This document shows, piece by piece, positions 6,015-64,000 of a stretch of 64,000 bases of DNA. The notes under the pieces were generated by a model that was not told where the DNA came from, ran no database searches, and saw only the letters and a program-made list of their open reading frames with translations. Each line of letters starts with the position of its first letter. Within the stretch, counting starts at the first letter, position 1. The position numbers were made by a program, and so were the translations under genes. Source of the DNA: Rhea pennata (lineage: Eukaryota > Chordata > Aves > Rheiformes > Rheidae); assembly GCF_028389875.1 (NCBI RefSeq), contig NC_084702.1:47243053-47307052 (forward strand). The letters run 5' to 3'.

Positions 6015-7323
6015 GGACTAGGTGATACAACAGCTCATTCTGGATGCCATCTCCAGACATATGGAGGAAAAGAAGGTGATCAGGAGTAACCAGCATGGAT
6101 TCACAGAGGGGAAATCCTGCTTAACCAACCTGATAGCCTTCTACGATGGAGTGACTGGCTGGATAGATGAGGGCAACGGATGTTGTGTACCTTGACTTCA
6201 GCAAGGCTTTTGACACTGTCTCCCATAACACCGTCCTAGAGAAGCTCAGGAAGTGTGGGTTAGGTGAGTGGACAGTGAGGTGGATTGAGAACTGGCTGAA
6301 AGGCAGAGCTCAGAGGGTCGTCATCAGTGGCGTGGAGTCTAGCTGGTGGCCTGTGGCTAGTGGCGTCCCCCAGGGCTCAGTACTGGGTCCCATCCTGTTC
6401 AACTTCTTCATCAATGACCTGGATGAGGGGACAGAGTGCCTCCTCAGCAAGTTTGCTGATGATACCAAGCTGGGAGGAGTGGCTGATACACCCAAGGGCT
6501 GTGCTGCCATTCAGAGACATCTGGACAGGCTGGAGAGTTGGGCGGAGAGGAACCTCAGGAGGTTCAACAATGGCAAGGGCAGAGTCCTGCACCTAGGGAA
6601 AACCAACCCTAGGCACCAGTACAGGCTGGGGGCCAACCTTCTGGAGAGCAGCTCTGCAGAGAAGGACCTGGGAGTGCCGGGGGACAAGCTGACCATGCGC
6701 CAGCAATGTGCCCTTGTGGCCAAGAAGGCCAATGGTATCCTGGGGTGCATTAGGAACACTGTTGCCGGCAGGTCGAGGGAGGTGATCCTGCCCCTCTACT
6801 CAGCCCTCGTGAGACCTCATCTCGAGTACTGTCTCCAGTTCTGGGCTCCCCAGTACAAGAGAGACATGGAGCTACTGGAGAGAGTCCAGCGTAGGGCTAT
6901 GAAGATGATCAGAGGGCTGGAGCACCTGCCCTATGAGAAACAGCTGCAAGAGCTGGGCCTCTTCAGCCTGGGGAAGAGAAGCCTGAGGGGGGATCTTATC
7001 AATGTGTACAAGTACCTGAAGGAAGAGTGTCAAGGAGGTGGGGACAAACTCTTTCCAGTTGTCCCATGTGACAGGACAAGAGGCAATAGGCACAAACTGA
7101 AGCACAGGCAGTTCTGCCTGAATGTGAGGAGGAATTTCTTCACTGCGAGAGTGACAGAGCACTGGAACAGGCTGCCCAGAGAGGTTGTAGAGTCTCCTTC
7201 TCTGGAGATCTTCAAGGCCCGCCTGGATGCAACCCTGTCTAACATGCTCTAGGTGACCCTGCTGAGCAGGGAGGTTGGACTAGATGATCTTCAGAGGTCC
7301 CTTCCAACCTTACTGATTCTATG
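6015..7323 (+). mobile_element. CR1 LINE copy with 3' half of reverse transcriptase ORF2 and 3' end
   Basis: 5'-truncated CR1 retrotransposon. It begins within the ORF2 reverse-transcriptase region (ccagcatggattcac... at about 6090), passes through the C-terminal part and ends with the CR1 3' UTR (gttggactagatgatcttcagaggtcccttccaacc) and a ctgattctatga terminus, without a poly-A tail. It lies in LNPEP intron 2, antisense to the gene. The left boundary is approximate. Confidence 0.95.
6167..7252 (+). pseudogene. CR1 ORF2 C-terminal fragment: reverse transcriptase palm and thumb
   Basis: Open frame of 361 codons ending in TAG at 7250-7252. Residues 9-16 (YLDFSKAF) form RT motif A with catalytic Asp, [13 protein letters not shown] at 67-79 is motif B, and FADD at 96-99 is motif C with the second catalytic pair. 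The rest matches the conserved CR1 C-terminal domain ([41 protein letters not shown]). The upstream part of ORF2, including the endonuclease, is missing. Just before the ATG the sequence gatgagggcaacggatgttg looks one or two bases short against CR1 consensus, so the true frame enters by a frameshift. It is a dead fragment, not a host gene. Confidence 0.92.
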
Positions 7324-8960: not shown

Positions 8961-10117
8961 CTGAATAACTCAAGCACAAATGGAATAGTGATTAGATCTC
9001 AATTGAGAGAGAAAAGTTATGACTGATTATCCCACACTTCTGCTTTATTTTTCAAGAAGGCTCACAGAAAAAGCTAGTGACAGCTCAATGAACTGACTTT
9101 TAAAACAAGACTGTGAAGATAAATAAAACTCCAGTGTGATCCTCTCTCCAGAGCAAAATTTCAAGACTACATTGTCAATTTGTAAAAGGTAAGGCTAGTG
9201 GTGATTAATATTAAAACTGCATTCCCTTTTCAGGGAACAAAAGCTACTTAATCTTTTGGACTTTTTCACACAAACTCACTCTGGCAGCAGAAATTTTGTA
9301 ACTTTGATTAAACTTTTCTTGCTTCTTCCTCAGTGTCACATTCCTCCCCTCTGTTTTTTAACTCTAGGTCTTAACATTTCTTAGTGCAAGCTGTTACCTG
9401 TTTATATTCTTGTTTTACTTAGCAATTGTTTCGTAGACCCTTCTTGACTACTTCCCTATCAGCTAAAGAGTCTTAACTTGATCCCAACTATTCTTTCTAG
9501 TCTTTCATTTTTTGTGTCTGTCTTTGCTCCTAGATGACCTGCATAGACTGTCATATTCTAACAAGGAAACAAACAATCTTAACTCTATGATGAGCCTACG
9601 GCCCCTCTTGAGGGGGCTGGAGTGTGGCCTGTCCATATCAGCCTTCTTGGTAAGAAGCACTGATCCCCACAGCCATGTCGCTATCTACCAGCCAAGAACA
9701 TCAGCAGAGAGGAAAAAAAAATAAGCAAAAAGCCCCACACCGCAGCTATCTGTAAGTACAGAAAACACACTGAACTGAGGAAGAAGCTACCCTGCCTTAA
9801 TGAACTTCCCCACAAAAGTCAGTTTTTCCGGGTAATGCTGATTTTAGTCCTGGATAACTTCTCCTTCCCTGATAGCTCAGCTTTGCATAAAGTGTCAACA
9901 ACACAAGGAAAAGGTTAAAAGGATTTTTTTAAATTCTAGTTTAAAATAACAGGAGATTAAAGATCCCTTATGTCCTACAGGGATTAACTGTAGCGACCAA
10001 ACATCCAGGGAACCCAACCCTCGTCATCTCACTCAAAGCACAGTCACCAAGATCAGACATACGTATGAACACAGTCTACAGAAGAAGCAGAAATTAGAAG
10101 CAGCATTTGTGGCATAC

Positions 10118-10958
10118 CTTTGCTTAGATTTCTCATCCTTGTAAGAAATTTTGTAAAACCCATAGTAGGTATCTGATAAATTAGACGAATACTCTATGTT
10201 GAGGGTGTAATTCTGTCCTACAAGGAGAGCTTCAGGAGCCATGATTGCAATCTGGTCATGCAGTGGATATTCCAGGAATTCAACTGGCTTTGCTTGACTC
10301 CCTCCTGCTGAAGTAATAGTTGCCTTGGTGATATTAAGTCCTGAGCTGTGAAGCACAATCTTCCAAGTTACCTGGATGACATTAACCACTATCTTTACAG
10401 AACCTGCAAATTTCAGAGTGGTTAGGTTTGGCTGCAAGACAAGATCATAATGCAGTGGTACAACATCAGTAGGAAGTCTAACTTTTGCCCATGGAAATAG
10501 CTTTCCATTAGTTGCCAAAGGGTATATTAGTTCCATTGTATGATTTTTTTTATAGCATCCTTCTTTGGTAAAGGCACATTTGGGAAGAAGATAAATCACC
10601 ATTATTACTGAAACTGCAATCACCAGAAGAACTGTGCAAACCACCATGGTCCTCGTAGAGGGCACTGAGCACGATCCACCTGGACTTTGTCTATAGCCAG
10701 TCATGTTATTCCGGAGACCAGAGCTTCTGTTCATGAAGGACATGCCCAGCAATTTTGCTGATGATTCATAATCTTCTTCCTCATCATCCATTTCATGCTC
10801 TCCAAGACCACGCACCAAGAGCCGGGAGCTCCTTGGTTCATACTCCACTTCATCGGGCTCCAGGGGATGTAAGCAAGGCTCTTTTGCCAAATCAACCACA
10901 TCAGGCTCTTCTTCAAACATGCTGTTTTCAATCATATTCCTTGGCAACTGAACTCGAT
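10118..10958 (-). CDS. LNPEP: LNPEP coding exon 2: cytoplasmic tail, membrane anchor, start of ectodomain
   Basis: Large exon of 841 nt, with acceptor ttcctgtttcag before 10958 and GT donor (gtatgc) after 10118. It starts with two bases that complete Asp7 and ends with two bases of Arg287. It encodes an acidic cytoplasmic tail with two dileucine sorting motifs (Leu53-Leu54 and Leu76-Leu77) and the nearly invariant segment MIENSMFEEEPDVVDL near residues 15-30. A hydrophobic signal anchor follows at about residues 111-131 (VVCTVLLVIAVSVIMVIYLL). The N-terminal beta domain of an M1 aminopeptidase begins with KVRLPTDVVPLHYDL and contains several N-glycosylation sequons (NHT, NLT, NIT, NYT, NLS). 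An open frame continues past both splice sites into intron but is not homologous there. The active-site motifs are not in this exon. Family membership is unambiguous; LNPEP rather than ERAP is fixed by the long tail and anchor. Confidence 0.97.
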
Positions 10959-11520
10959 CTGAAACAGGAAAGAACATACGTTACCTGATAAAAAACAAAG
11001 GGCATGATTATAATACTCCAAAGATTACTGACTGAGTTAAAGCATGGGAAACATTAAACAGCACATCATTTCAAGAGCTCTGCAATTTTCTCTCTCAGGT
11101 TTGTTTCCGGAAAACATTTCCATGCTGTTTTGCCTACTGTTATCTTATTGAACTAAAATTACACCTTGTGCTTTTCTGCACTTCAAGAAGATGTTTTCCT
11201 TGCATGTAGTTGACCATGTCTCACATCACCACTGGGGATGAGCTACATCACTGCACAGCACTCCCACTACATTGATGTCACTGTCTTGGCTACATTTTTG
11301 CTACTCCAATAACCCATACTGTATTTAACAAAGGCAATTAACATAGAAAGCTCTATGTTGCAGGACAAACCAATACACTTTTTAAGGTGTTTCTGAATAT
11401 ATTAGTTACTGAGCTTTTTATTAAAGGACAGAGCTACCAAGGTGCTGGCAGATATAAACATAAAAAGGTCAATGGACCTTTTTCCTTAAAACAACTTTTC
11501 ACTCAATTCCTGAAAAAAAA

Positions 11521-36839: not shown

Positions 36840-37960
36840 CCGGGATGGGATGCTGTTCAGAATGCCTCGACTGGGATCCTTACGTAAACAGAGGGCCCAG
36901 TTCCTCCCTCCCCGTCAGAAAGTCGTGACGGGTTCGGCACTGCTGGCACAAACCAGGCTCCTTCTTGCGGGGCAGCCCAGAGCAAGCACACTGCTTGCCT
37001 TAGAAGTTGCCCCAGCTTCGCTCTATCTACCTGATCCGCCGCCCGGCCGGGCAATAAAAAGCGCAACAGCACTGAAGCGGTAAGGGAGCCTGTTCTCACC
37101 TTCTCATTAAAAACGTGCGTGCCTGACGTGGGAATTATCCCAAAGAACCCCAAGTCTGGTGTAATCGTGTAGTTTATCCGCTACACCGGGCAGGGGGCGG
37201 CGGCTAAGCGGCCTGCCCGCTCCTCCAGCCAGCTGCACTCGCCAGAAGCCGCTCGCCCCAGCCCCGCCGCCGCCCCGGCCGCCGGCAGGGCCGCCGCGGG
37301 CCCGCAGCCGGCGGCCCGCCGGGGAGGCTCCGCTCCGCTGCGCTCCGCTCGGCCCGCAGCAGCGGTACTCACCGCTGGGGAACGGCTCCATTTTCCTGCC
37401 GGAGTCCCGCCGCCGCCCGCGAGAGCGAAACCCGAGCGAGGGGGAAGGAGGAGAGGCGCGGGGGAGCCGCCGCCGCTGCTCCTCACTCCTCCTCCTGCCG
37501 CCGCATGCTCCTGGGGCGGGCGCTCCCCGGCCGCTGCGGCGCCTCACGCCGCCGTCGCTGCCCCCGGCCCCAGACCGCCCCGCCGCCGCCGCCGGGCCCA
37601 GCCGAAGAGGAAGGGGAAGGCGCAGGCGCCGGCTCGGCCCGCGGCGCCCGCCTGCCCGCGCCCCTGCTCGGCCGCTTCGCCGCCGCGGCGAGCGCCCTCC
37701 GACCGCCTCCCGCCGGGGCCTCAGCGCCGGCCGCCGCCTCACGGCCGGGCCGCCGGCTCCGCCCGCCCCGCCGCGGCGCTGCCCGCTGCCGGCCTGGGCG
37801 GCTCCAGAGGCGGCCGCCGCCGCCGGGCGGGGCGCGCCCCCACCTGCGCGCCGGCGCCGCCGGGCGGGACCACCTGTGGCGCTGGGGGCCCGGCCCCGGC
37901 CCCTTGGCTTTTCGTTTCTCTGGTCTTATTTCCCGCTCAGCCTCCCCTCCGGCCTCTGCG
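36840..37960. promoter_or_regulatory. CpG island and presumed LNPEP promoter
   Basis: A sharp shift from AT-rich flanks to very GC- and CpG-dense sequence covers LNPEP exon 1 and about 570 bp upstream. Sp1-type GC boxes are visible, for example GGGCGGGGC at 37825-37833 and CGCCCGCCCCGCC near 37762. I see no clear TATA box upstream of the ATG, which fits a dispersed CpG-island promoter. Several long open frames on both strands here (for example plus 37505-38005 and minus 37107-37974) are Arg/Pro/Gly/Ala-rich by-products of GC content. Possible bidirectional transcription cannot be judged from sequence. Confidence 0.8.
37373..37391 (-). CDS. LNPEP: LNPEP (IRAP) coding exon 1, start codon
   Basis: First coding exon of leucyl-cystinyl aminopeptidase, a type II membrane zinc aminopeptidase of insulin-responsive and endosomal vesicles. 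The ATG is at 37391-37389 and reads M-E-P-F-P-S plus one base of the next codon. A canonical GT donor (gtgagt) follows at 37372-37371. Joined to the acceptor at 10958 it gives MEPFPSDRVQLPRN, close to the N-terminus I remember for mammalian LNPEP (MEPF...DRLQLPRN). The start context is strong, with A at -3 and G at +4. The exon sits in a CpG island, as expected for a broadly expressed gene. Only 19 coding nt lie here; the 5' UTR extends to higher coordinates with an unknown transcription start. Seen: start, donor and phase. Known: family N-terminus. Confidence is high because phase and sequence both fit. Confidence 0.93.
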
Positions 37961-40140
37961 CTTTCTGGCACCACCTTACTGATAAAACACCGGTGGTTGG
38001 TTTAATACGGGAAAATTGTAACCCCTGCTTGTGGGAAAATAAGAAAATATGACTTGCCTGTTCCCCGAGAATTATACATTCATTATTAAAAAGAAATCTA
38101 TGTTATTTTCATTCCTTTGGGAGAGGAGGGAAAGCTAGAGTCAAGCCAGAATTCAGGCGCTAGTCCCAGGCCTGTAGCTGTTCTCACTGTTCCATAAAGG
38201 CAAAAGTGCACTTTTTCACACCCAAAATGACTTAGTTACATTTGCAATCCTGTAGTATACACCAGGCCACAGTTAAGTTTCATATCTGGTGCTTGGGTAA
38301 TGAATATTTACTCACCAAAATGGTATCACAGCTCCAGCACGACATTTCTCAAAAGTAAAACGTCAGTATAGCCCATCCTGAAAAGGAAGAGTTACATTAT
38401 TAAATCAGTAACAGCATTCCTTTTAATGCCTTAACATGTCCCAGGAGGTCACCCAGCTTGGCCCGTATTTAAATACATAAAAGAAAAATTAATGATCAGG
38501 TATCTGACTCTGCAGTACCCAGATCCTGCACAGTGTCACACACAAACTACAAACGCACCTTAATAACTTCTTCTGATCCTCATCACTTGCTTTCACCATT
38601 CTTCATTTTCTCCAGTCATAAAATCTTTTATTAGCATTATACATGTCTATGAAGCAGAAGAGGCAAAATAAGGTCACACTCTATTACACATGCAGAAATT
38701 TCCTTATCTGTATTTTCCTATTAAAATCAAGTTTCAGGCGAATACAATGGGAGCTACTCACATATACAAAGTTCAATCCAGAGGTCATTCCACAGTAGGA
38801 ACTGTTCACACCTATCCAATATTAGGTGAATAAAGATTTCAATATAATTTATATAACATAATTTAGAACAAAATTGTAATTGAAACTTCAGCTAAAATTT
38901 CTAGAATACAATAAAAGCTCAATACCCAGCAGATACAGACTTTTTTTACTGTAAAACACAGCTTCTAGTCCTTGTTCTAATGTTATGAGTGATTAACAAA
39001 AGCAAAGAATGTTAAAATACCTCTCTTTTCAGGCCTTATGGCAACAATTATCACAATGTTGTACTGTTATTTACGATACAGAAGAAAACTTTTTTTGTAA
39101 ACGCTCAAAGCCCTAAATATATTTTTAAAGCAACTGGAACGATTTACATTTCACTTTTGTTTGGCAGCCGCCATCCAACAACATATTGGCTGAATGTTTG
39201 CCATGGTACAAATATCATAGCTACCAAGTGTGTCTCTTTCTCATCCTTGAAGACCTGCTTTCCCTAAACAATGGTTGAGATAATTGTGCTTTAAATATCA
39301 AGAAATATGACTCAGACCTTAGTTGTTCTGGTTTACTTTTCTGGTGAGAGGAACAGAGATTTGATCCCTGTGAACACTGCAAGTGTCAGGTGACGCCTCA
39401 GTGCTTTGACCCAGTGGAAATCCTCCAGTTACTTTCAGGCAGATATGCACAATCCATAGCACTGTATTTACAAAACAGAAAATGACCATCTTTATTTCTA
39501 CAAGTGTATCCATACCTGAGAGAAGCAGTTGCTTCCACTGAAGAACCATTGCTATGTATTTTACATTGCCACACAACCAACCTTTCAGCAATACTTCCTA
39601 GGTCTATATTACTTTTTTAATAGGTTGTAATTAAGTTTACACTGTTACCTTGTCTCTCTCTTTGCCTCCTTCAGAAGTTGAGACCACAGGTTCATTAAAA
39701 CACATTTGTCATAGGAAAAATGTCTCAAGGACAAAACAATTCTGCCAGTTAGGTGAAAATAGATCTATAGATCTAAGAAATAAGATAATACCATACTGTT
39801 TCAATGTGAAAAATATTCCAGTATGAAGTAAACACTAAAGAATCCTTACGTAGAAGTACTTACAATTGTGTATGTAGGGGTACACAAGAAAGAGTGAGAA
39901 AGAGCAGAGTTCACAATGAATTAAAAGATACAAGGTCTATTGCTCCCAGAATGGCTTAATTTAATTATATCTGTGTATTTTCTTAGAGTCCAGCAAATTT
40001 TGCATTTCCTATGGCTTAGAACAAGAGTTTGGCAACAGGCCAGTTACAATCTTCTTCTCAACAGGCACACAGAAGTGGCCAGTGGTGTATGTGCCCCCAG
40101 ATGAACTACAGTGCTGTATTACAAATCAAGAAACAAGCTC

Positions 40141-49620: not shown

Positions 49621-49778
49621 TCATTTTAGGCCTTGAACATTATTCAGCAGCCAGTTTAAAAGGCTGTTAAGATTCTTCTCCAGCCATCTGATGCTTTTAG
49701 TGATGGTATCCAGTGCAAATCTGGTGATTGTCAGCTGAAATTCTTGGTTCTCCAGACACTTAAAAAGACAGCAACCAA
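49621..49778 (-). pseudogene. ERAP2-like pseudogene terminal exon with stop codon
   Basis: The acceptor (ttttcctatttag) precedes 49778. Two bases complete a codon from the previous exon, then 51 uninterrupted sense codons lead to TGA at 49623-49621. Diagnostic sequence: LFKCLENQEFQL, LDTITKSIRWLEKNL, NWLLNNVQGLK then stop. This matches the C-terminal helices of ERAP2 (LETITKNIKWLEKNL...TWL) clearly better than ERAP1 (ETIEENIGWMDKNF). It is the best-preserved exon, with no visible lesion apart from a one-codon length difference near its start. No AATAAA was identified close downstream. Confidence 0.93.
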
Positions 49779-52577
49779 CTAAATAGGAAAATTGAATTAA
49801 TAGCTTGGCTTGGTCAACTTTCAGTCAAGCACCTCTAGCAGTTTCTATCAGATATTACATACAATGTAAACCGCATGTCTAAAATATTTAACCATATTAA
49901 TGAGTTGTGAGCTTTCCCTTATCCTGATTTCTAAGGTGCTGTAGATGAGCAGAGGCTTACATCTTAACAAACCCCAGTTACTTCTGAAATTTCACAATAT
50001 CACACGAGTCCAAGTCAGCTTGTTTTTCTGCAGAGCAGTGCTCCAGCTAGTTATGGCTCTAGTTTGCCATAACTTCTGCCAGCTTTTGACCACATTCTTC
50101 TTTTAGGTGATCTTTATACCAAGGAATGTAAGAAGTCATCTTGTCATGTAATAGAGCACCAATCAGATTTTGCCCATCACTTTAATTATAATTAAAATAA
50201 ACTTGATTTTGGCAGTTCTCTCAAGAAAAAAACAGCTTGATTTTAATAAGAATCACATTTGTTGTAAAACTATCTGGACCAGTATCTCATCTCTAATGTT
50301 AACTTGTTCCTGATGGTTAGTGAACGAGTATAAGAAACCGAGGAGCAATAGAGAGATACAGACATATGCAGTCTCAGAAACATATAGACGTGTACAGTTT
50401 AAGCTTTCAGAACACTTCCTTGTGACATCTGAACACACTGATTTTAATCAGATGCCTGTCTGTGTTGTGAACTGTATATATTTTTCAAGGCAGAGCCAAA
50501 GAACAAGGATGGTTATCAGAATATTAAATCTCCTTCTGTATAAATGGAAAAGGGATATACATACTATAATAAGAACCACTATGCAAAGTGATACATTTGG
50601 AGAACACCAGATTATACCATGCTATATAGAGAGAGATCTGACTAGCACAAAAATTGGAGCAAACTTATTACAAATTATTACCTAAATCTCCAAACCCTCA
50701 CCTTAATGCTCTTTCCTTTTAGCATATTATCATGCCACATTACTGAAAGAAGTAATGCTAATAAGCGTATGTTAGGTTCCTTAGCTTTTTGGTTTGTTTA
50801 TTTGTATGCCTAAAATATGGAAAAATATTAATAGAAGGTCACCAATGTCTTCTAGCTTATCTTTGGGGGAAAAATAAGATATAGTCCTAGAGATAATAGT
50901 TCTAAAAGAGAAAGACACTAACTGAAACCTATAAACAAGAATATGAAAAAAACCCAGCAATAATATAGAAGTATAGAATACTGAAATTATATCTTCACAG
51001 TTTTTATAATAATTAAATATATTATTTTCCTTTTACTTAAGACAACACAGTTCCAATTAAAAATATGTCTTCACCCTAACAGACAATAACAGAGCAACTT
51101 TTTAAACAGAATTTTGTTTTAATCTAATTTATTACTTATTATTGTAGGAATATCAATCCATGTAAGTCTAACCTCCTGGCTGATATGAAATACATTGAGC
51201 AAAAGGTTACATTTTCTTCTACTTCCTCCTTCAATTCTTGCAAGATGTATAGATCAAGTGCTAAAGCAATTGTAAATGTTTTCTCTGCAATGGTGGTAGA
51301 TTATGACCCTTTTTCTCTGCTATTTTTGTTGCTAAACAAATCATTCTTTATTTTCCTTCTGCTTCTATGATAAAGACAATTCCCTGCTCCTGATACCCAT
51401 CCACACCATGAATGACTGATATTAAAAGCAAGTGCAAGAGATAGCAGAAAAATGAAAATGTAATTTATTAAATCTTGACTTGCAACAAAACTGTGAAGAT
51501 AGAATTGCACTGAGAAGCACTTCTCAGTAGTGAATCTACACTCCCACCTATCCAGTTATCCCAGAAGTTTGGTGCCCTATAAATAACACTGAGTTGCCTA
51601 TCAGAAGTAATCTAAAGACAAGCTGAGCATTTATAGCTTCTTTGAAGTTTACTGGGAGCAACGAATACCATGTGTAATAATCAGGCCGTTTTCATGCTGG
51701 TAGGATTTTAGAGACATCACATCACTTTGCAAACTTGTACAGGTTCACAAGTTTAGGGTTTTTTTCCTTTGAAGGTTCATAACGTATTGTAAGTGCTACA
51801 AATCACTTAAATCAGGCAAAAAACAAATGCCACTGAAGACAATTCACTGAACAGTTCAGTAAACAACAAACAACTTGTTTGGTATTAGTCAACAATAGCA
51901 TTTTTAACACTAAAATGCTCAAGCAGCAATAAGCATACAGTCCTGTTAGGAAGAATAATAAAAAATAAAAAACCAAATATTGGAGACTTTGTGACTCTGA
52001 CTTTAGGACTGCATCACCATTCAGACTAGCAGAAATTCAGATTACTGCAGTTAGATATTTGGCAATGAGAATACCCATTCTTCTGAAATGCTATTTTCAA
52101 TGGCATACAACAAGCGCAAGAGACAATAACTCTAAATTGTTTGTACTAGACAAAAAATACCTCAGTGAACAGCTGCTTTATTATGTAGCTCCAGAATCGT
52201 GGAAGTCTACTCTAACAGCACCTCTATTAATATTCTGCAGTGAATCACTTTCAAATTCTAAATTCTGAAAATCTAAGTTGCAAACCTTTTTACAGAAAAG
52301 AAAGACAAAAAAATTTCTCTTTTTCCTCCTAAAAATATTTTGGGTAAAAATTATATCACATTGAAATGCCACCCCAGAACTTTCAGAATTTAATTCTCCA
52401 AATAACAGTTCAGTGTTTTGTACTTTCTTCTTTAAAAATACTTAGTCTAACAAAAGGAAGGTAAATATCTTTATAAGCCAATGATAATCACAAAGGATTA
52501 ATAACAATAATTACTCTTTATCATGCTTATTCAGCAGCATGTTCTGCCAACAAGAGCTAAAGTATGCAAGCAGGTAC

Positions 52578-52705
52578 CAACTTTTTAAGAAGCTCAGTTC
52601 ACTCTTCCAAGCTTTTGTAACTTTGGGTTCAAGAGTATAGCATGAAGAAGAGCTAACAGATCTTGAGTCTCAATTTTGTCACCTTCCATACCCATTTTCT
52701 TTAAC
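52578..52705 (-). pseudogene. ERAP2-like pseudogene exon (GMEG...ALLHAI...)
   Basis: The acceptor (gtcagcag) precedes 52705. The minus strand reads LKKMGMEGDKIETQDLL then ALLHAI, LNPKLQKL, R-V-N-*. The family has LGMEG..IKTQ..AALLHAI..RPK..QLAWDFVRENW. ALLHAI is typical of ERAP2, where ERAP1 has a different sequence (ILTLIG). Lesions: about four codons (AWDF-like) are missing before RVN, and the following conserved Trp codon is TGA (52596-52594). LLKKL then follows only in another frame. A GT follows CTTAAAAAGTTG at 52577-52576 and could be the old donor. Confidence 0.93.
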
Positions 52706-53633
52706 CTGCTGACAACTGGTTGGTTACAGCTTTTATCCAGTTTGTTATCAACAGATATAGTTAAGGTTTTTTGATGTTCCAGACAAACATGCTAAGAAAA
52801 TGAAAGTTCTCAAGATGAAAGTTTTTTCAAGATACTTCCTTATTCAAGATAAAATGCTCAACAGACTGCTACAATATATATTCTATTTTTTTAGCAAAGC
52901 TATTCAGAATTTCAGTGGAGACTTCTGCATAAAACATAGCAGTTTAGTTGAGTGTATAATTATTGCTGAAAGAGATGTTCTACTATGCTTTTAATAGTGG
53001 TTTCATAGGACTGTTACAAATTAAACCTGTTCAGACTACAGAATTTGTTTTCAGCCACTGTTCTAACAGTCAGTCCTGAATATCCAGACATTAAAGAATG
53101 ATAAATTCAGTGTGCTTGCAGCTATGCAGGGACCTTGGAGGAGGCTCCAAGAGAGGTATTATTTTAGTCTCTAAACTCAAACATGATTTCAAGAAGTTAG
53201 AATAAATCTGATAAGTGGCATCATTAAATACTAGTTTATCAGAATACACTTTAAAAGGGTTTAGATTCTGTTTACAATAAAGGAAGTGTCTATTTTTAAA
53301 CTATGCAGTTTGATCTTCCTAATGCTCTGGTGTATCTGAATTATAGATATTAAACTCATTTCACAGTGGCTACAGTTGTCTTTATAGTTAATGTTCTAAT
53401 GTAAATGTTTCTGCAGCCTGGTAGTTGCAAAGAAGTCCAAAGAGATTGCCCAAAAACTGTTGCCTGGAAAACTGTTCTTCTTAACAAACTATGTAGGAAA
53501 GTGATTATATAAATCAAAATACGCCTCCACATTTTTAATGCTCTGCAAAACCACTATTGAGATTGTCATGCTCTCATGTTGAAAGAATTTAGTACTATCT
53601 TGGATTAAATAATTCAGTAAAGATGATTTCTAC

Positions 53634-53753
53634 CTTTTCATGATGCCTGCTAGTTGTCAAAGCATAGAGGTTTTTTATGCTTTTCTGCACCCGAATCTGA
53701 CAGAAAGTACTGCTTCAGGAGACAATTCCATTCTGCTGCTCCCGTTGCTCCAG
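53634..53753 (-). pseudogene. ERAP2-like pseudogene exon (GA..A.WN.LL.QY...)
   Basis: Acceptor cttcccag lies before 53753 and a GT donor after GAAAAG at 53634 (GT at 53633-53632). The first part reads GATGAAEWNCLLKQYFLS then SGAEK, matching GAQTTAGWNYLLEQYELS and SSAEQ of the family. After the AE codons the match moves to another frame: NLYALTTSRHHEK (family ILYALSTSKHQEK). The shift lies in an A-rich stretch at about 53671-53682; without it the frame runs into TAG and TGA. An open frame extends upstream beyond the acceptor on this strand but loses family resemblance there. Part of the helical domain IV. Confidence 0.9.
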
Positions 53754-56104
53754 CTGGGAAGGCTGTCTGTATAGCAGCAGCTGGAAGGCTGTAGTAGCAA
53801 AGCCATGGTAAGTGATAAGGCTTTTCCTTTTGTATGCGGACCCATACACTGTAGGCTATCCTGCTTGGTGTCAGCACAGACGTATGATGATAGTGTCACA
53901 CATGTACAATATATTTTTTCTTTTTGTTTTGCCCTCTTTTCTTTTTCTCTTTAAAAGGTTGCACTAAAGAACATCACAAGAGTCAATGTTTAGCTTTTTC
54001 CCTGCAATTTTGTTTGACTCATGTTCATGTACTTAACATTTCTCTCTCATATTTACTCAGAGGTAGAACATAAAACTTCGTGTCTCCATTCTGAAAACAG
54101 CTTATATGAGTTGGTTTGCTATGATTTTGCAGGAATTTTCCATAAAAATGGGAATAACAAGGGTTTAATAAAAAGCTAAGAAAATGTTCAGAGTTTTCAT
54201 ATACATCTAGCCAAATTATGTTTTCACTCACTTTCAGTCCTCCTATGAATTTATGTACAATCACGAAACAAGACTGGAGTGAGTCTAGCTGTCATATTAG
54301 AAGCTATTGAGCTCAATTGAAGTGATTAGTTGAATCCACACGCCAACTGCATTTTTCAAGCAGCTGGAAATCTGCCCAATATTCAAAAAGTCACAGATGA
54401 TTTCATCAGCTACTTATTACTCTGCCTTAATCTCTCCTTCTTGGGCAAGATAATTGTTGGCTAACTATGATGCTCACTTACTGCTAAGTTGGGGTATTAA
54501 AACTCAGGCTACAGCTTCTTAGTACATTAGATCACAAAGGCAAGGAACAGCATTCCAGTCCATAAGCAGAGTGGGGAACTGAAATAAACATCTGAGATGT
54601 TTTCATCACTCAACAATGAGCAGAACTGTTATAGTGTACTATTTAAATGTACTGACTGGCAGAATGAGGCATATAAAAGGTCAATGAAAGCATTTGTAAT
54701 CCTGTACCACATGGTGAGTGTAAGAACTGCAAATCAGAGAGTGGTGTTGCATCAAAATTGGCCATGTGACATTATTACAGCTGACAAACAGCAGCTGATA
54801 TAAAACAAGACTATCCCTAAGGACATACTGATATTAAATATTAAGCAAAATATAAGTTCATCTTCCATACTCTCAACCACTTCAGCAAAGTTCTTTTTAC
54901 ACTCTAACACAAGGACAATTATTTCCTTGTCTAACTGAGCAGAATATTTTAATTCTTCTCTTTTCCATTTCTTACTACTACAGGACAGAGAGATGCAGGA
55001 AAATAATTTTCTACTTGGCCTTGGAAGTTTCATGACAATTTTGCCAGGTGTTATTACACCCTTAGTTATAAATTCATTAGCAGAATAACAGTAAGACTCA
55101 AAACTATGTACTTTGTAGCATTGTTTAAAGGAAAAAATATAGCATAGGTGATAAAAAGAATACTTAAGTGGATAAATACAAGGACACATGACTCCTGAAA
55201 TACAGCTGCATTTTTACAGATGTAGAGCTGAGGTCTACATCTAAATCTCTACATGAGATCATGGGGAATGTCTACATACATGGTCTCTTTCAAGTCAGAC
55301 CCTTTAAATAACCTGAAAAACTATTCCAGCACACTTGAAAATCAGGAAAAAAAGTATTATGAATTGAAAGATGAAAAGTTCTAAAAAGCACTTGATAAAA
55401 ACAACAGATATTTTTATCTAATTACGATTACACCAAAACCACCGATTGTTCATTAGTTTCCATTAATATTCCTTTAAAACTTTGCTTGAAAAGTAAACCA
55501 TCTAGTTAAAGAACCTTAAATGAAACGACATATCTAAGCCACTTACTTTAATATCCTACTACTTTCAATCTACTTGTTTAAAAGCTCCTTTTCCTCTTGG
55601 ATACAGGGAGAGTACTGCAGGTCACAGATAAGCCCCATGAGTTTGGAACAAAGCATTCTGTTGGAAACAGGCCCTCATCACTCCCAGTCTGCTTTTCAAT
55701 CACTGGCTTAAACTACTTCAAAATGTATCGCTGCAGAGAGAATATGGACTGGTTAGTAAGTGCTGTTTTCCAGGACCACTCTAGTGCTCACTGACTATAA
55801 AGAAAATGACTTACATAAATATAAATCTCACTACTGCAACCCTTTCATTATGTCTATACCCTTGCACTCATTTTGGTTAGGACACTCACTCATAAACACT
55901 TCCACAATATACCTACAATTCCTGACCTTCCCCACAGGATTTAGCCTAGGGATCCATGTATTCCCCCATTATCATAATAAAAAATAGCTGTTGAGGGGAG
56001 TTCTGCTTAACTCAGTAAAACTGCTCATGATAGGTTAATGGCAAGCATTTTGCACCTGGTTATATGTCTTTATACAGAATGAACAGGAACTCATTGTCCC
56101 CCTC

Positions 56105-56345
56105 CCACTTCAAGGACACAGAAATTGCTTTATGTATCACTGTTCACTGTTTGCATCAACCTGTAACAGGGGTTGAAGGGAGTGGAAGGCTAAGAACACT
56201 AAAAGACAGTGAGAGCTCTCCTGTTTTCATAACCAGGCAGATCTTCAGACACAGAAATGCGAGTCTGAGGCTGTACCACTCAGTCTGCAAAACACCGTCT
56301 CAGTGCAATCCCAACGGCAGTTACAGCGGCTTCTTCTGAGCAAAT
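56105..56345 (-). pseudogene. Possible decayed ERAP2-like exon (LA.H..QPC region)
   Basis: Low-confidence relic, proposed because it lies between two certain exons on the right strand. A pyrimidine-rich stretch ending ctctaag precedes 56345. Minus-strand fragments resemble the helical-domain segment TWTDEGS...LLLLAC.HNYQPC: CRWDCTETV near the start, then LVFLAFHSLQPC at 56202-56167, then *-S-N about 12 codons later, where the family has ESNG. In-frame stops and an apparent insertion separate the fragments. Individual matches could be chance; boundaries are approximate. Confidence 0.32.
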
Positions 56346-56630
56346 CTTAGAGAACAAGAGAAGTAGAAATCAGTTACGGGTCATTAGAACACGAGTTAGT
56401 ACTGTGCTAAACATCATAAACCACAATATAGACAGAACAGATACGGCGTTTATAGCTCAGCCAGTTGATGAATATGGGCCTTCAGATTTTCAGGAGAGTT
56501 TATTTTCACTTTTAGTTTTTTTGGAAGAAGATGGTACTTTCAGTTAGGGAACTGCTCTGCGTGTTCCAATTTCTCGTAGACAAAATGTGTTTTAATGGTA
56601 CATTTTTTTTCTCCAAGTAAAATAATAGAT

Positions 56631-56795
56631 CTTAAGGTTTCCTGCAATGCCAGAAATCTTATTCTCTCTGTAATATGGTAAATCATGGTATAGGTAAATC
56701 AGGTATTCAAGGCCTTACTGGAGTACTATGCTGCTGCTGTCATGCTGAAAGTATGGGTCAGATCCAGGACTCTGGCTAGTGATTGCCTTCCTGCA
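56631..56795 (-). pseudogene. ERAP2-like pseudogene exon (AGR...LD.T...NLK)
   Basis: An excellent acceptor (gttttttcttttcag) precedes 56795. The minus strand reads AGRQSLARVLDLT, matching AGRLTLDKALDMT-type sequence of the alpha-helical C-terminal domain (domain IV) of ERAP2. The frame is then lost, and the match resumes in another frame with V-L-Q-*-GLEYLIYLYH (family: ALLEGLSYLESFYH) and ISGIAGNLK (family: ISDISENLK). Lesions are a frameshift between about 56755 and 56728 and TAA at 56715-56717. After CTTAAG at 56631 the sequence continues AT, not GT, so the expected donor appears lost. The start phase (two bases from the previous exon) fits the family exon structure. Confidence 0.9.
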
Positions 56796-56884
56796 CTGAA
56801 AAGAAAAAACATACACAAACATTAGCATGTGCTGCTTGGTTGCTCTTAGCATGCTGCCTGGATCTCACGCTGTGTTGTCAAAAG

Positions 56885-57162
56885 AATCCAGGACTATAAC
56901 TCATGAGACCTAGACTGCATTCCCAACTAGGCTGCTTACTATGTACTTACCAGTCTGTTGGGCTTGCAGACTTGTGCAACTCACTCAGCTAAACTTTGGG
57001 TCTAAGTTTTCCTGCTTTAAATCTGATATACTTTTTTGTTTATCTACATCAGTCCAGCACCACTACTTATGTTTTAGCACAAGGTGTTGTAGGGAATGAA
57101 GACTGAATCACTGTGAACTGCTTTGAGGTCATGGGCAAAAGGCAGTACAGATATACAAGGTT
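56885..57162 (+). mobile_element. MIR-like SINE relic
   Basis: The sequence follows the MIR layout: ccaggactataactcatgag, then cattcccaactaggctgctta, then cttgtgcaactcactcagctaaa, then tctaagttttcctgctttaaa. The 3' part gaactgctttgaggtcatggg..gcagtacagatatacaag resembles the tail shared by sauropsid MIR-type SINEs. It lies in a pseudogene intron, directly upstream of the exon at 56795. Confidence 0.5.
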
Positions 57163-58539
57163 AGGTTCCTTTACTGCCTAATCTAATTTCAGCTGGTTTG
57201 CAGTTGATAAAGATGCTGCCCATTGAAATCAACTCCTTGTGAAGTAGGCACTATAAAAATTTATTCTCTGTAATTTGAATCAGATAAACCACAGCAGCAG
57301 GTCAGATCAGGGTAAGCTCTATAGCTAGCCAGCAAATACAGTTTCACAGTTTAGCTAGAATTCTTGGCTCTCCCAAAAAGATTTTGCAAAGGATCCTGCA
57401 TGAACCATGAAGCAATGAACCATCCATCACAGTGAACTGCTCCTCTCCCTTCTAGAAGCATTGTCCCATCTTTATCTGAGCTCTGACCCCAGAGTATCCC
57501 TTTAGGAAACACTCTGGAGGAGAGGGGTAGCTAGTAAAGTAAATTGGAAAGAAACAAAGTACAATTCATCTGACCTATTTCAGAGGTCTGCTATAGGATG
57601 AAAGGAGTACTTAAAGTGCTCATTACTCTCCACTGACAACAAGGTGAGCCTAGGCAAATAGCTCAAATGTCGGTATTGCAGACGTCTACACTTAGGATGG
57701 TGGCCAAACTAGGTACTAAGTTGCATGCAGTCCCTAAGCAGTCAAATACAGTTCTCAGCACATGGCTAGTGATGGACTTGTGTTGATGGGAGGCTGCTGG
57801 GCAAGTAAACCCAAGGAGGTTTGGAGGAAGGGAGCCAGCAGGGCTGCTAAGATCACCAGTTATGTCGGGCCAGCAGTCCAGATAGCTCTGTCTACAGAGG
57901 AGTGGCAGAACACTTGGAAGTTACTGGCAAGCACTCCTAGAGCTTCCTTTGTCTTTCCTTCTGCAAAGTCCATGATACTATATTTGGGAACTCTTGGGTG
58001 CATGAAGTTTCTGGAATACAGCTGATGAGGCCAAGAAGGTCAATATCCTTTGACTGTTCCATATTTTCTAAAACCTGCTTGGAGGTGCCAGCAAAACCCA
58101 AACAGGACAACAACCCCTGCTTTTTCTAATAACACCAGTACCAACATTCAGGGCTTTTACTTGAACATCAGAGCACCTCTGGAATCACAGATGCCAGGCA
58201 TCCACCCACAGAACACCAACTCTGATGCCATTTTCCCTTTGTGTTCTTCCTCATTTGTATGGAAAGTACAGAAATGTTTCACATTCAGCCCCTACTTACC
58301 ATGATTTCATAGGCCTCCCACCTTCATCTCATTTCAAAACTTTAGACTCCTAGCTAACTTAATTTCTCCTCATATATAAGCCATTCCATGCTTCAGCTCG
58401 TTTTTTGCCCTTCTCTTTGCCTTTTCTACTCTGTTCCTTTAAGATGGGATCCATCTTCCCACATACTTAGAATGTGGCAGTGCCACAGATCAGCTCATTG
58501 GGTAGCAATGGGTTTTATATTGTTCTTTCTTAATTTCCT

Positions 58540-58695
58540 AATGATCCCTAACATTGCTGCAGTTAATCAAAGCACTTTAAAATACCGACGGTCACTTCCA
58601 AGACCTCCTTCCTATTAACTATTACTATGAAATATATCATGGTTTCTATTTTTACCCAAAATGCCTTATTTTCCCATGCAGAGCTCTAACAACTC
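58540..58695 (-). pseudogene. Probable decayed ERAP2-like exon (WVK...YFIV)
   Basis: Weak match in the expected place between the neighbouring pseudogene exons. The minus strand from about 58673 reads ENKAFWVKIE, then YFIV (58635-58624), resembling the family segment EK.SWVKFN....GYYIVHYE. Further on, GCTTTGATTAAC (58573-58562) gives A-L-I-N, like the R..LINN.FQLV end of this exon. The frame between these anchors is broken and residues are missing, so lesions are many or the match is partly chance. Exact boundaries cannot be given. Order, strand and spacing support it; a translated alignment would decide. Confidence 0.45.
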
Positions 58696-59083
58696 TCCTT
58701 TTGCTGATTTGTTTGTATGTGATCCTAGCTAGCACTTACAATTATAATAGTATACTACATTTATAGATAAAATTTCCATCAAGTATTTTTAAAAGACAGA
58801 AACTTGTCCAAAATATTATTTCCCACAGGAGTATAGTGGGAAAGGTTCCTAACAAAATAAAAAAGTACTCTGTCTTTATGGGAAAGAACAACGAGCCAAA
58901 AATTTCAAAGAAACTAAGAAAAATGACATGAAATGAAAGCCATATTTTTTTTCTCAGCCTCTGTCAATGGACTTGTGGCCATTGAGGTGAGCTGTCTTTT
59001 TCAGTTAGCATCAGCTGCAGGGTATAACTGACTTGTGTTATGCTCAAAATCTTGTTTATGAGTAAAGAGGAAGTACACCAGCT

Positions 59084-59104
59084 AGATAGATAGACAGACA
59101 GATA
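59084..59104. repeat. (GATA)n/(GACA)n microsatellite
   Basis: Short run of GATA units changing into GACA units, a class of repeat common in vertebrate genomes. Confidence 0.75.
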
Positions 59105-60035
59105 AAGCCAAGAATTGATTGTTAGTGTAACTGACATACTAAGGCTCTGATCATTATTAGTCCAGATCTAATTATTATGAAAAAAGAAAGACTAATAATA
59201 TAATTAAAACTGTTATATATACATGTGGTTTCTACCCCTTTTCCTGTTGATAACAATGCCTCACCCTTCCCCTGCTCCTCTGGGTCCTAAGATCGGTGGT
59301 TTCATTCTGGTGTTGAAGGGCGTGTTACGGTGAGTTGTCCTGTTGCCAGAAGGAATATGATGTTCATGTTGATGATTTCTTCTTCCTCACTCTAGAATTA
59401 GCTTGGGATCATGTTTATGTTTGCTAGCATGCTTTTATACCTTGCTCTTTCTTCACTGGTCTGTAGCTGCATATTACATCTGAATTTATTATACACAGTG
59501 CCTTTTACATACATTAGACACTATTTCTTTGTTCTCTCAGTTACCTCTAAAATCAGTTTTGTCCAGCTCCAGGTGTGCATTTCTCTTACCACTGGTGAGT
59601 TGTTTATAGTCATAGAGTCTCCTGTGGCAAGCCTGTACCCCACCTCTTAACATTTCATGCCTGTTCTCTATGCCACATCCTGTGTTGTCACTTCTCAAGG
59701 CCTCCACTGGCATAGCAAGCCTGTATTTCTCTATACGTCTTCATTGTGTTAGTGGTACCATACAAAGATAAGCAAAAGTAAAACAAATTACCTATAGACA
59801 CCTAGTCAATTAGAGGAATTGCTGTTACAGCTAAATTAAGTTAAACAAAGCTGTAGGTAGATCAAGAAAAGCTTAGAGCAGCCTGAAAAGTCTCAGTCCT
59901 GAGGCCTTGCAAACATGGTAAAAAACTTAAGATCTATTACTTGCAATGGCAATTACAGCTGGTAAAGTAGTGGCACTTTACCAGTTACTTTACCAGTTGT
60001 ACTGGTCCATGGGGAGGACTAACCCCCCACGCCCC

Positions 60036-60465
60036 CCACCAGTACAGGCTGGGGGCTGACCTTTTGGAAAGCAGCTCTGCAGAGGACCCGAGAGTCCTAG
60101 TGGACAACAAATTCACCATGAGCCTGTAACGTGCCTTTGTGGCCAAGAAAGCCAATGTTATCCTGGGATGCATTAGGAAGAGTGTCATCAGCAGGTCAAG
60201 GGAGGTGATCCTGCCCCTCTACTCAGCCCTCGTGAGGCCTCATCTCGAATACTGCATCCAGTTCTGGGCTCCCCAGTACAAGAGAGACATGGAGCTACTG
60301 GAGAGAGTCCAGCGTAGGGCTACAATGATGATCAGAGGACTGGAACATCTCCCCTACAAAGAAAAGCTGAGAGAGTTGGGCCTGATTAGTCTGGAGAAGA
60401 GAAGACTGAGGGGTTCTTATCAACACATACAAATACCTTAAGGGAGGCTATCAAGAGGATAATGA
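60036..60465 (+). mobile_element. CR1 LINE internal ORF2 fragment in a pseudogene intron
   Basis: Matches 6617-7040 of the other CR1 copy: caccagtacaggctgggggc, then [40 protein letters not shown] and [16 protein letters not shown] in one plus frame, with a stop and frame changes. It lacks the 3' terminus, so it is truncated at both ends. It lies about 370 bp from the pseudogene exon at 60833, antisense to it. Confidence 0.93.
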
Positions 60466-60832
60466 GGATAACAAAAATGACTGGAATTGAATCACATTAG
60501 ACACATTCTTATGTTTTACTTACTGGTATGAACAGAAAGTTCAGCATAGTTTTCTCTTTCATATATTAATGTTTAGAGTTACATAAAATTAAGAGGATCA
60601 TAAAGTCCTCAGGATTTGCATCTAGCTATTTTCAGTTGCATACAAGAAGGAATAAAAAATTGTAGGAAAGGGAATAAGCCTGGGATAGGGACAAACACCA
60701 AGGGACAACACTCAAAAATGCTGCCTACAATTAAAAAAAATGTTATTATTATGTATTTCTTAACTGATCAATAATTGTTCAGTCTGTTCTGAGAATCAGC
60801 ATACTTGCGACAAGACCAATCACTTTCAATGC

Positions 60833-61037
60833 CTGTTTTATTTTTTAACAGATATCTGTGAACAGCCCTGGAGCTGCTTGTGATACAAGTCAATGGGATA
60901 TGCCAGAAATACCTGTGTCCTTCAGAAATGCTATTTAAGAAATATTCTTGTTGCAATGTAACTATTTTCCCTTCATGTTTAACAAGAAATAGAGGGATTC
61001 CTTTCTGAAGTGTTCAGGTATTCATCACTTCTTAGAT
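60833..61037 (-). pseudogene. ERAP2-like pseudogene exon (TLQKG to VHRYLLKNKT)
   Basis: The acceptor (ttacacag) precedes 61037. The translation reads I-*-E-V-M-N-T-*-TLQKGIPL, then LVKHEGKIVTLQQEYFLN, FWHIPLTCITSSS and VHRYLLKNKT. This is the start of the beta-sandwich (domain III) of oxytocinase-subfamily M1 peptidases, where the functional sequence is VK.MM.TWTLQKG.PL. TAA (61032-61034) replaces the conserved Lys codon and TGA (61014-61016) replaces the invariant Trp codon. After ...AAAACAG the intron begins GC (60832-60831) instead of GT, either a rare GC donor or a decayed site. The 205-nt length is compatible with one exon of the family. IPL after QKG and TSSS are ERAP2-like. Confidence 0.93.
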
Positions 61038-64000
61038 CTGTGTAACTGAACTCCCAAGACTGAACTTAAACAAACTCAGATAAATCACACCCTGAGATCC
61101 CACCAGACTACACAAAAGAAGGTGATGGTTTAGTCTGGGCAAGTCAGGATTTCAACACCAGCTAGGCTCTAGGTCAGCTTTTGATTGATTCTAGGAGCAA
61201 ACTGTGACTTATTGAACACCAAGAATATGTGCCATGCAAAAAATAGTAATGCTTCTCCTAAGGAGGTCGGCTGCGTTTCAGACAAGTAGTTTGGTTAGCA
61301 CACCTAGTGAAGCTTTCACACTAGGGATGCAGTTATTTTTGTAAGAATGGTTGTGTAAATACTTACATGCACCTAGAATTCTTTGTACATTTTTGAATAG
61401 AAAAAGGCTCCCACACTACTAAGGAAATTCTCACACTTTCTAAAATATAAAAAGAACTTTAGAGCTAAAAAGTAGAATTGAGAGACAGTATAATTCTGTA
61501 ATGCTAGTGACAATGCCACAGATTTCATGTGACTAGGCTAATAATAATAACTGTTTGCTATAAGAGGCCTGAGAGCAAATTATATGATTTTCAGTGAGTG
61601 AGTATGGCCATTAACTTCAGTTTTCAGCAGATACTTGGGTAGACTAAGGCCAGTGTGGGCTGATACTACTGTATTTCTAGTGTTAGAAATACATCATGGT
61701 TCTCTGAAAAGAACTGATAGAGGGATTCACTTTACTGATCAAGTTGCTATGCAAAGTGTGGTGGGCTTTGCTCCTGAAGGTGTGCTGTTCCCTTGAATGT
61801 GGCCTTTTATTTTTCACTCTTTATGATGTTAAACTTATCTCCAGTGAAAAAAATTAACAGGCTCCACTGCTCCATAATTTAGGTTCAGAGTGTGCATCTT
61901 CTAAGCACAGTTTATCTGTACTCTCCCTGCAGCCTGAGAGCATCCAGTGAAGGACAAGCTCAGGTGGCTGCTGATCTGAAGAACTGGAATACACTGTTTT
62001 CCAAGCTCAACCCCCAGAGCCAGAAGTAGAACATCCTGTCATTTTATCATCTCCACAAGGCTGTATTTTATCTTCTAATAATGCCCTTACTGCACTGCTA
62101 ATGGCCTGGAAGCTACATGTTGAACACTAGCAGATCAGAAGTTGGAAAAGTGAATTCTGATATATTCAACATATTTCCTAATAGTTCAATTAAAACAGTT
62201 ATATATAAAGAGGCAAATAAAACTAGCTGACAAACCTGAGCCTAGAAAATCTACTTACTGTGAACAAACAGTCTTTAAACACAGATCCTCAACAGCTTTC
62301 TGTGAAACCTGTCATTCGAACATATACTCAGTGGATATGTTTGGATGCAGACACATGTACCAATTAAAATGTGCATCCACAGCTTAATATTTACCAATAT
62401 TATATCTAGGCTTCTAAGTGACTGAAGGACTCCATTTTTTTTTTCAAATATACTGTAAGGATGTAGAAGAATCCACATTGTCAGCACTCAAATAACTCAT
62501 TTGGTTTAATTCTGATGACTGCCATTGCACAGCTTTATTCTGCAACATTCCACTGTTTAACTGAGAGATTCATGATACACTCTAGACTAAAACTGTGAGA
62601 TAAATTTAGGACCTAGCTGGCAAAGGTTTGCTTATGGGCTACACCTTGTACTGTTTACAGCAGGTTAGCTGTGATATTGACTTCTTTTGCTAATATACAC
62701 TGCGATATTCTTACTAATTCAAAATCACCTTAGCATGGAGTTTGTTCAATGCAACAAGCTCAGCAGTAAACTAAAACTGTAAATTAAAGAAAACACTTAG
62801 ATGATACAGTAAAATCACAAGCAAGAATGCTTCTTGACTGATAAGGGATGACAGCAAAGAGGAAAATCTGATTCCTGATCTAATGCAGCACTGAAATTGT
62901 TACATAAAAGCTGCAAACCACAGCTGAATCACCTCTCTGAGATCAGAAGCAACAGAGTCATGAATGAGGCCTGAGTGACAGAAAGATATACACATTTTTA
63001 AGAAAAACAAGTTTTCGAAAATGATTATGAGAAGCCTAGAAAATTATGCAGGAGCACCTGTTGGCACACAAAAATTCCACAGCTATGTCCTTGAAAACTG
63101 ATTAAGTTTGCACCTGCCAGCATGACAACCACAGAACTTGGGCCTCTGAAGGTATCTTGCAAATAATTATGCGACTCTGGTGAACACATGGTTCATAAGA
63201 TGTTAGCACACCAGCTATTTCACAGCAATTGAATCAAAGTGTATCAGGGATACAGCAAGAGTGGGGCTGCTCCCTGAGTGAAAACAAGCTGGGACAAAGG
63301 GTAACAAAGCACAGGCAGTGCTGGGCACAGGCCCAAGACACATAAGCAAGGTGAGTGGGGCTGTGGCAGTGGCAGTAGTGGTTCCTGCCAACAGTCTGTC
63401 AGAGTCCAGTATTCCCTGACCAAGTTCTTTTAGATACTCTACACATATGGAGAGTGCAACGTTTAATATAAAAGTTTACTTTGAAGATATTTGCTGTTAC
63501 ATGGGATTTTTGATTTAGCAGATACAGCAATATACTGAAATCACAATTCAAGTGTACACTTACAAAGTTCAATCACAATACTAATGTAATTGCCATTACC
63601 AGTCTTTATAAGAAGTTCATCTCACAATGCTCAGCATCCCCAGTCACCAGGAAGGAATATATGGATTGAAGTCAGCTCAAGTCTGTTGCTCTCTTCAAAA
63701 TTCCTTTGTTAGTTGTTGAGGTTTTATACTGTGTGTTGGGCTGAGCCACATACACACTTCCCTCCTGCTGGTCTGGCTATCTCAGGGAGATATTCACATT
63801 CTTTGGATCAGCTCAGAAAGAAACATTTACACCTGGTCTATGGCTGCATGAAATTACCATTCTATGAAATTACTTATTTAAAACAAAGGTTTTAAACTGG
63901 CCCCTTTTGTGTTGAGACAAAGCCAGTTCTCTGTGCCTACACTATTCCTGAGCTTCATAGGCACTTCACCCTTGCCCATCTCCTCTGAGCCTTCTTCCAT
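61038..64000. other. Region upstream of the pseudogene, no secured feature
   Basis: AT-rich sequence where the 5' exons of an ERAP-like gene would be expected on the minus strand. I searched by eye for HEXXH, GAMEN and the exon before TLQKG and found only one short unconvincing match (near 61,890, listed under rejected). The catalytic exons are beyond the right edge, deleted, or too decayed to recognise. Confidence 0.5.

Follow-up and report, generated by a model that had tools for sequence, protein, structure and literature searches.

The window analyzed here, a 64,000-nucleotide stretch from Rhea pennata, ends inside a ruined aminopeptidase gene, which we call copy A. Copy A is an M1 aminopeptidase relic and very probably represents the R. 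pennata ortholog of ERAP2, surviving as a unitary pseudogene in its ancestral place: an ortholog by descent, with no working enzyme. Its neighbor, copy B, is an ancient second ERAP2-type gene, here named ERAP2L, that is broken as well. The orthology of copy A and its decay in place rest on the gene tree, the position of the relic and its lesions. An initial annotation, made from the letters alone, had taken the genome for bird-like, and R. pennata is indeed a palaeognath bird. Window numbering is used throughout; flanks of 30 kb on the left and 70 kb on the right were added, and values above 64000 denote positions past its right-hand end.

For copy A, 15 of 18 coding exons were recognizable (Table 1). 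Frameshift-aware alignment to Chelonia ERAP2 (P0034) gave 417 identical codons out of 715, with 12 stops and 6 frameshifts; 4 of these stops and 3 of these frameshifts fall inside the window. The initial annotation had described a decayed minus-strand aminopeptidase gene with its exons in order, and seven segments (eight exons) at 49636–61064 bear this out, reading 18, 17, 16, 15, 14, 13 and a fused 10–11. It had counted four of five segments as damaged. Four damaged segments were found (10–11, 13, 14 and 15), but out of seven, with no damage seen in exons 16–18. Fusion of exons 10 and 11 probably reflects a deletion. The gene had been ended at 61037, which proved too short: exons 8, 7, 6, 4, 3, 2 and 1 all lie past the window. 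Exons 2–4 are on the plus strand in ascending order (70020–70988), a block inverted relative to the rest of the gene. That several splice sites are kept holds for the exon 4 donor, the acceptors of exons 6 and 7 and the exon 17 donor, these being the sites established by inspection of the flanks.

Table 1. Coordinates of copy A and LNPEP features (window numbering)
Feature	Position	Strand	Remarks
Copy A, part inside window	49636..64000	-	
Copy A exon 18	49636..49767	-	29/44 identical to Chelonia ERAP2 P0034 905-948, no lesion
Copy A exon 17	50844..50930	-	17/29 identical to P0034, no lesion inside; GT donor kept in flank
Copy A exon 16 (partial)	52609..52710	-	20/34 identical to P0034
Copy A exon 15	53631..53790	-	33/52 identical to P0034, 1 frameshift
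Copy A exon 14	55573..55739	-	36/55 identical to P0034, 1 stop, 1 frameshift
Copy A exon 13	56631..56803	-	29/54 identical to P0034, 1 stop, 1 frameshift
Copy A exons 10+11, fused, intron gone, 8 residues short	60834..61064	-	46/77 identical to P0034, 2 stops
Copy A exon 8	64547-64678	-	right of window
Copy A exon 7	66076-66204	-	right of window
Copy A exon 6	67258-67365	-	right of window
Copy A exon 2	70020-70166	+	right of window, inverted block
Copy A exon 3	70398-70469	+	right of window, inverted block
Copy A exon 4	70881-70988	+	right of window, inverted block
Copy A exon 1	73228-73669	-	right of window
LNPEP large 5' coding exon, intact	10114..10962	-	208/283 identical to human LNPEP, no lesion
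LNPEP first coding exon (MEPFPS..., then GT donor), our own reading	37373..37391	-	ATG at 37391

Exons 5, 9 and 12 were not recognized, their best scores falling inside the range of 12 shuffled profiles each; in the positive control for these searches, exon 2 scored 110.7 versus a shuffle maximum of 33.0. Exon 5 carries the GAMEN and HEXXH motifs, so the catalytic core of copy A is missing. Neither GAMEN nor HEXXH-18-E was found in the relic, which retains only the WLNEGFA stretch of exon 6. With no catalytic exon found, numerous breaks in the frame and an inverted exon block, copy A makes no working enzyme. Separately, the segment 60037–60460, which falls where exon 12 would be expected, is 83% identical to 6614–7034, and its plus-strand reading frame resembles a CR1 element.

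Shuffled and reversed queries rule out a chance match. Across 48.5–74.5 kb, turtle ERAP2 P0034 gave 17 high-scoring segment pairs (HSPs) of at least 26 bits, the best at 84.3, while 41 control queries (40 shuffled, 1 reversed) produced 8697 HSPs, none above 25.8 bits. At 12–38 kb, mostly LNPEP intron 1, the true P0034 query reached at most 24.3 bits. A processed copy is ruled out as well, since introns are kept. Copy A has what marks a unitary pseudogene: kept introns, the original place, several disabling lesions and, within the P0034 and PF01433 searches, no intact ERAP2 copy elsewhere in the genome. In the P0034 search, with 48 of 91 first-look candidates scored, there were 49 matches, and all those outside the cluster were at most 65% identical. 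They sit on C1, C4, C9, C10 and C26 and at 40.4 Mb of C61, the contig of the present locus (presumably the Z chromosome), and are presumably other M1 genes. With PF01433, for which 45 of 45 candidates were scored, there were 29 matches and no further ERAP2 or ERAP2L copy was seen. Direct comparison of seven loci outside the cluster revealed none close to either gene. Within the cluster, ERAP1 and LNPEP seem to be the only genes that the rhea retains.

The initial annotation had named the gene an ERAP2 ortholog decayed in place and had proposed a phylogeny of the concatenated exons as a check. Such a tree was built with IQ-TREE from 29 rows, a subset of the 45 in an earlier quick tree, and it upholds the assignment. 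Copy A fell within the amniote ERAP2 clade (crocodile, turtle, mammal) with support of 100/100. Its nearest neighbor was crocodile ERAP2 P0121, a less firm placement (91/77). Approximately unbiased (AU) tests rejected grouping copy A with tetrapod ERAP2L (p = 8e-24), with copy B alone (p = 5e-83) and with ERAP1 (p = 1e-123). When each exon piece was scored by bits, ERAP2 of turtle or crocodile was the best family for 14 of 16 pieces, with one tie and one piece for ERAP2L; the script's own tally, which assigns the tied piece to ERAP2, reads 15 to 1. In a protein search with copy A, the top four rows were turtle and Crocodylus ERAP2, at 588–620 bits.

Location points the same way. With human ERAP1, ERAP2 and LNPEP as tblastn queries, the cluster order was LNPEP(-), copy A(-), copy B(-), ERAP1(+). 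LNPEP extends left from 37.4 kb, beyond the window edge; copy A spans 49.6 kb to about 73.7 kb, crossing the window's right end; copy B occupies 76.5–94.5 kb, outside the window and between copy A and intact ERAP1; and ERAP1 covers 98.5–113.2 kb, also outside on the right. Copy A is flanked by LNPEP on one side and, beyond copy B, ERAP1 on the other, and shares the strand of LNPEP; for comparison, we take the human order to be LNPEP, ERAP2, ERAP1. Decay in place is consistent with this position, the orientation and the kept introns.

In emu, ostrich and tinamous, the counterpart of copy B carries the database name "ERAP2". Overlapping pieces at 76488–94532 matched emu P0001 at 741 of 869 codons. 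The raw alignment counts 2 frameshifts and 5 stops; two introns that were aligned through account for 4 of those stops. Reading of the sequence together with the alignment gave four frameshifts and one stop: a shift of frame in exon 1 that separates the signal peptide from WNQLRLPG, frameshifts at the end of exon 1, in exon 3 and at the end of exon 14 (the last by our own reading, compared with the emu protein), and a TGA stop in exon 8. The exon 4 donor site, placed by ERAP1 phase, reads AT rather than GT. A zinc-binding residue is changed (WLNGGFA in place of WLNEGFA), and GAMESWG stands in place of GAMENWG. Exons 17 and 18 were not found when three minus-strand frames were read over 73.6–76.5 kb, nor among emu-protein matches of at least 26 bits in 74.5–97 kb. 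Copy B has neither an unbroken reading frame nor an unaltered set of active-site residues. ERAP2L was the best fit for all 14 of its exon pieces, and in the IQ-TREE analysis copy B grouped with emu, ostrich and Eudromia (100/100) and then with crocodile and turtle (100/99); grouping it with ERAP2 was rejected by the AU test (p = 2e-43). ERAP2L is present as a protein in other palaeognaths, crocodile and turtles, and broken in the rhea.

The two genes separated long ago. The ERAP2 clade includes Lepisosteus P0046 and Amia P0060, with a lungfish protein (100/99), and the ERAP2L clade includes Atractosteus P0017 and Amia P0031 (88/90), the less firmly held side of the split. Sharks fall outside both clades (97/94). 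Because gars and bowfin appear in both, the split dates back at least to the origin of bony vertebrates. Database names ignore it, rows of either clade being labeled ERAP2 or ERAP2-like. A squirrel protein named LNPEP (P0007, 1365 aa) also scored high with ERAP2L and is possibly a fused gene model.

Protein searches extended the comparison to other birds. With copy B as query, birds made up 5 of the best 120 proteins among 7751 hits, all of them palaeognaths (emu, ostrich and three tinamous); four of these five ERAP2L rows are partial models. With copy A, birds made up 4 of the best 120 of 342, again all palaeognaths, at 415–444 bits. Three of the four were on the ERAP2L side in the quick tree and the fourth, P0004, was outside the tree sampling; no bird protein of the ERAP2 side was found among these best 120 of 342 matches. 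An ERAP1 query had dozens of neognath proteins among the matches listed. A complete neognath ERAP2L, or any bird ERAP2, should outscore much of the best-120 lists. The following history is likely. Bony vertebrates would have started with two ERAP2 genes, and birds would have lost the true ERAP2 before diversifying; the "ERAP2" of emu, ostrich and tinamous would be the other gene. The rhea, and perhaps neognaths independently (a part judged by absence from protein lists), would then have lost ERAP2L too.

Neutral rates in birds are about 1–2 per billion years. Crown palaeognaths are dated to 62–68 million years in excerpts of PMC12368558. Stop density in copy A corresponds to about 0.153 neutral changes per site (95% 0.079–0.267), and in copy B to 0.011 (0–0.063). 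At those rates, the middle estimate for copy A is older than the palaeognath crown, the low end is not, and copy B is younger. Copy B is the much less eroded and, by these estimates, younger wreck, a gap that the frameshift counts (6 versus 4) narrow. The loss of ERAP2 probably occurred on the line to birds, before the split of living birds, and of this we are less sure. For ERAP2L, the available text of PMC12368558 has ostrich branching first, then rhea, then tinamous and emu-kiwi; given this order and the presence of ERAP2L in ostrich, emu and tinamous, its loss is the rhea's own. Excerpts of PMC13182139 describe the order past ostrich as disputed.

Could copy A instead be a decayed tandem duplicate of the neighboring ERAP2L, or of ERAP1? 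It adjoins ERAP2L and has the same orientation; ERAP2L is also the slightly better match for the second half of its exon 14 and an equal one for exon 13. Yet the AU tests reject all three such groupings. Moreover, of six DNA matches between copies A and B, five are in exons (64–75%) and the sixth, outside exons, covers 59 bases at 76%, so the introns of the two share no general similarity. We consider a duplicate very unlikely. Less likely still is that sequencing or assembly errors account for the lesions and that both genes are functional. Although the lesions were called from the assembly, copy A has 18 of them along with missing exons and an inversion, several kinds occur in copy B, and none is present in ERAP1 or LNPEP on the same contig. 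In frameshift-aware control alignments of ERAP1 (versus emu P0178 and R. pennata P0177) and LNPEP (versus human), there were 0 frameshifts, and the stops (4 and 1) lay, by coordinates, in intron aligned through or just past exon edges. With no real lesion in these controls, the contig is not error-ridden here. It is similarly improbable that copy B still yields a useful non-catalytic protein, such as a partner or decoy: its exons are mostly open and about 85% identical to emu, but it has frameshifts in exons 1, 3 and 14, the exon 8 stop and an exon 4 donor without GT, and its last two exons were not found.

A more serious rival concerns timing and leaves the identity of copy A unaffected. ERAP2 may have been lost in the rhea line only, rather than in the bird ancestor. 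The low end of the stop-based divergence of copy A (0.079 per site) could fit a loss within the 62–68 million years given in excerpts of PMC12368558. We nevertheless regard this as rather unlikely, given the contrast between the many bird ERAP1 proteins and the lack of any ERAP2-side bird protein among the best 120 of 342 matches, and a copy A branch about six times that of copy B. Several points weigh against our overall interpretation. The copy A pieces were chosen by likeness to ERAP2-type proteins, and the branch is long (0.78), which leaves the exact sister unsure though the clade is firm. Lesion calls rest on assembly sequence. The age gap suggested by stops is not matched by frameshift counts (6 in A, 4 in B), and the loss date of copy A is rough. 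The P0034 genome search was scored in part (48 of 91 candidates), and the bird absences apply to best-120 protein lists, not to genomes, the rhea being the only bird genome read.

Rhea ERAP1 matched R. pennata protein P0177 at 948 of 974 aligned residues; the differences were taken as overhang at exon edges. ERAP1 exon 8 (104144–104293, right of the window) has an apparent GC splice donor (AAG then GCAAGT). The MEPF start is common to human and rhea LNPEP. The first LNPEP coding exon, where G+C content is 0.69–0.81, is inside a CpG island (37001–38000, CpG observed/expected about 1) that holds the start codon at 37391 and the donor just after it; the next LNPEP coding exon detected lies 26 kb from there. 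Neither the Rfam scan nor the tRNA scan returned a match in the window.

Loss of ERAP2 has precedent. In rodents, as in the rhea, ERAP2 is missing and ERAP1 stays, and a truncated ERAP2 beside LNPEP is reported for Mus pahari (excerpts of PMC7390905 and PMC2954825). Compared with the loss described in that material, the rhea shows most exons in place and a second ERAP2-type gene broken. That birds are mostly without annotated ERAP2 is already published: an NCBI annotation survey found them almost completely without it, apart from a tiny group (PMC7390905, in excerpt). That survey is by annotation; its available text mentions no relic and draws no line between ERAP2 and ERAP2L. A further parallel is the STK33 unitary pseudogene of neognath birds, with exon remnants in the original place and loss on one branch but retention on another; it concerns another gene and pathway, and palaeognaths keep STK33, whereas here a palaeognath lost an ERAP2-type gene (PMC4509753, in excerpt). 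Three findings are new as far as our searches show: an ERAP2 relic still in place, the division into ERAP2 and ERAP2L, and the rhea's loss of both genes. None of these was found in the literature searched, part of which excludes little, and the term 'ERAP2-like' was absent from it.

The remains of a gene for a major histocompatibility complex (MHC) class I trimming enzyme are thus visible in place in a bird. In the endoplasmic reticulum (ER), class I peptides have their N-termini trimmed by ERAP1 and ERAP2, enzymes of differing specificity (excerpts of PMC2954825 and PMC7573153). The initial annotation had left MHC class I trimming to the remaining ERAP and LNPEP, which is incomplete in that ERAP2L next door is also dead. 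Judging from gene content and known enzyme roles, ER trimming in the rhea would rest on ERAP1, with LNPEP in endosomes. On the two-loss history, many birds would likely depend on ERAP1 alone for class I peptide trimming in the ER and lack an ERAP1–ERAP2 partnership. By the survey counts excerpted from PMC7390905, 29 birds are without ERAP1 and 11 without LNPEP; unless they reflect gaps in annotation, these numbers would limit how far this extends. More broadly, vertebrate databases use the one name ERAP2 for two ancient genes, and surveys counting 'ERAP2' across animals may mix both. Emu, ostrich and tinamous with ERAP2L, and the rhea without it, offer a natural comparison for the effect of a second trimming enzyme on the class I peptide repertoire.

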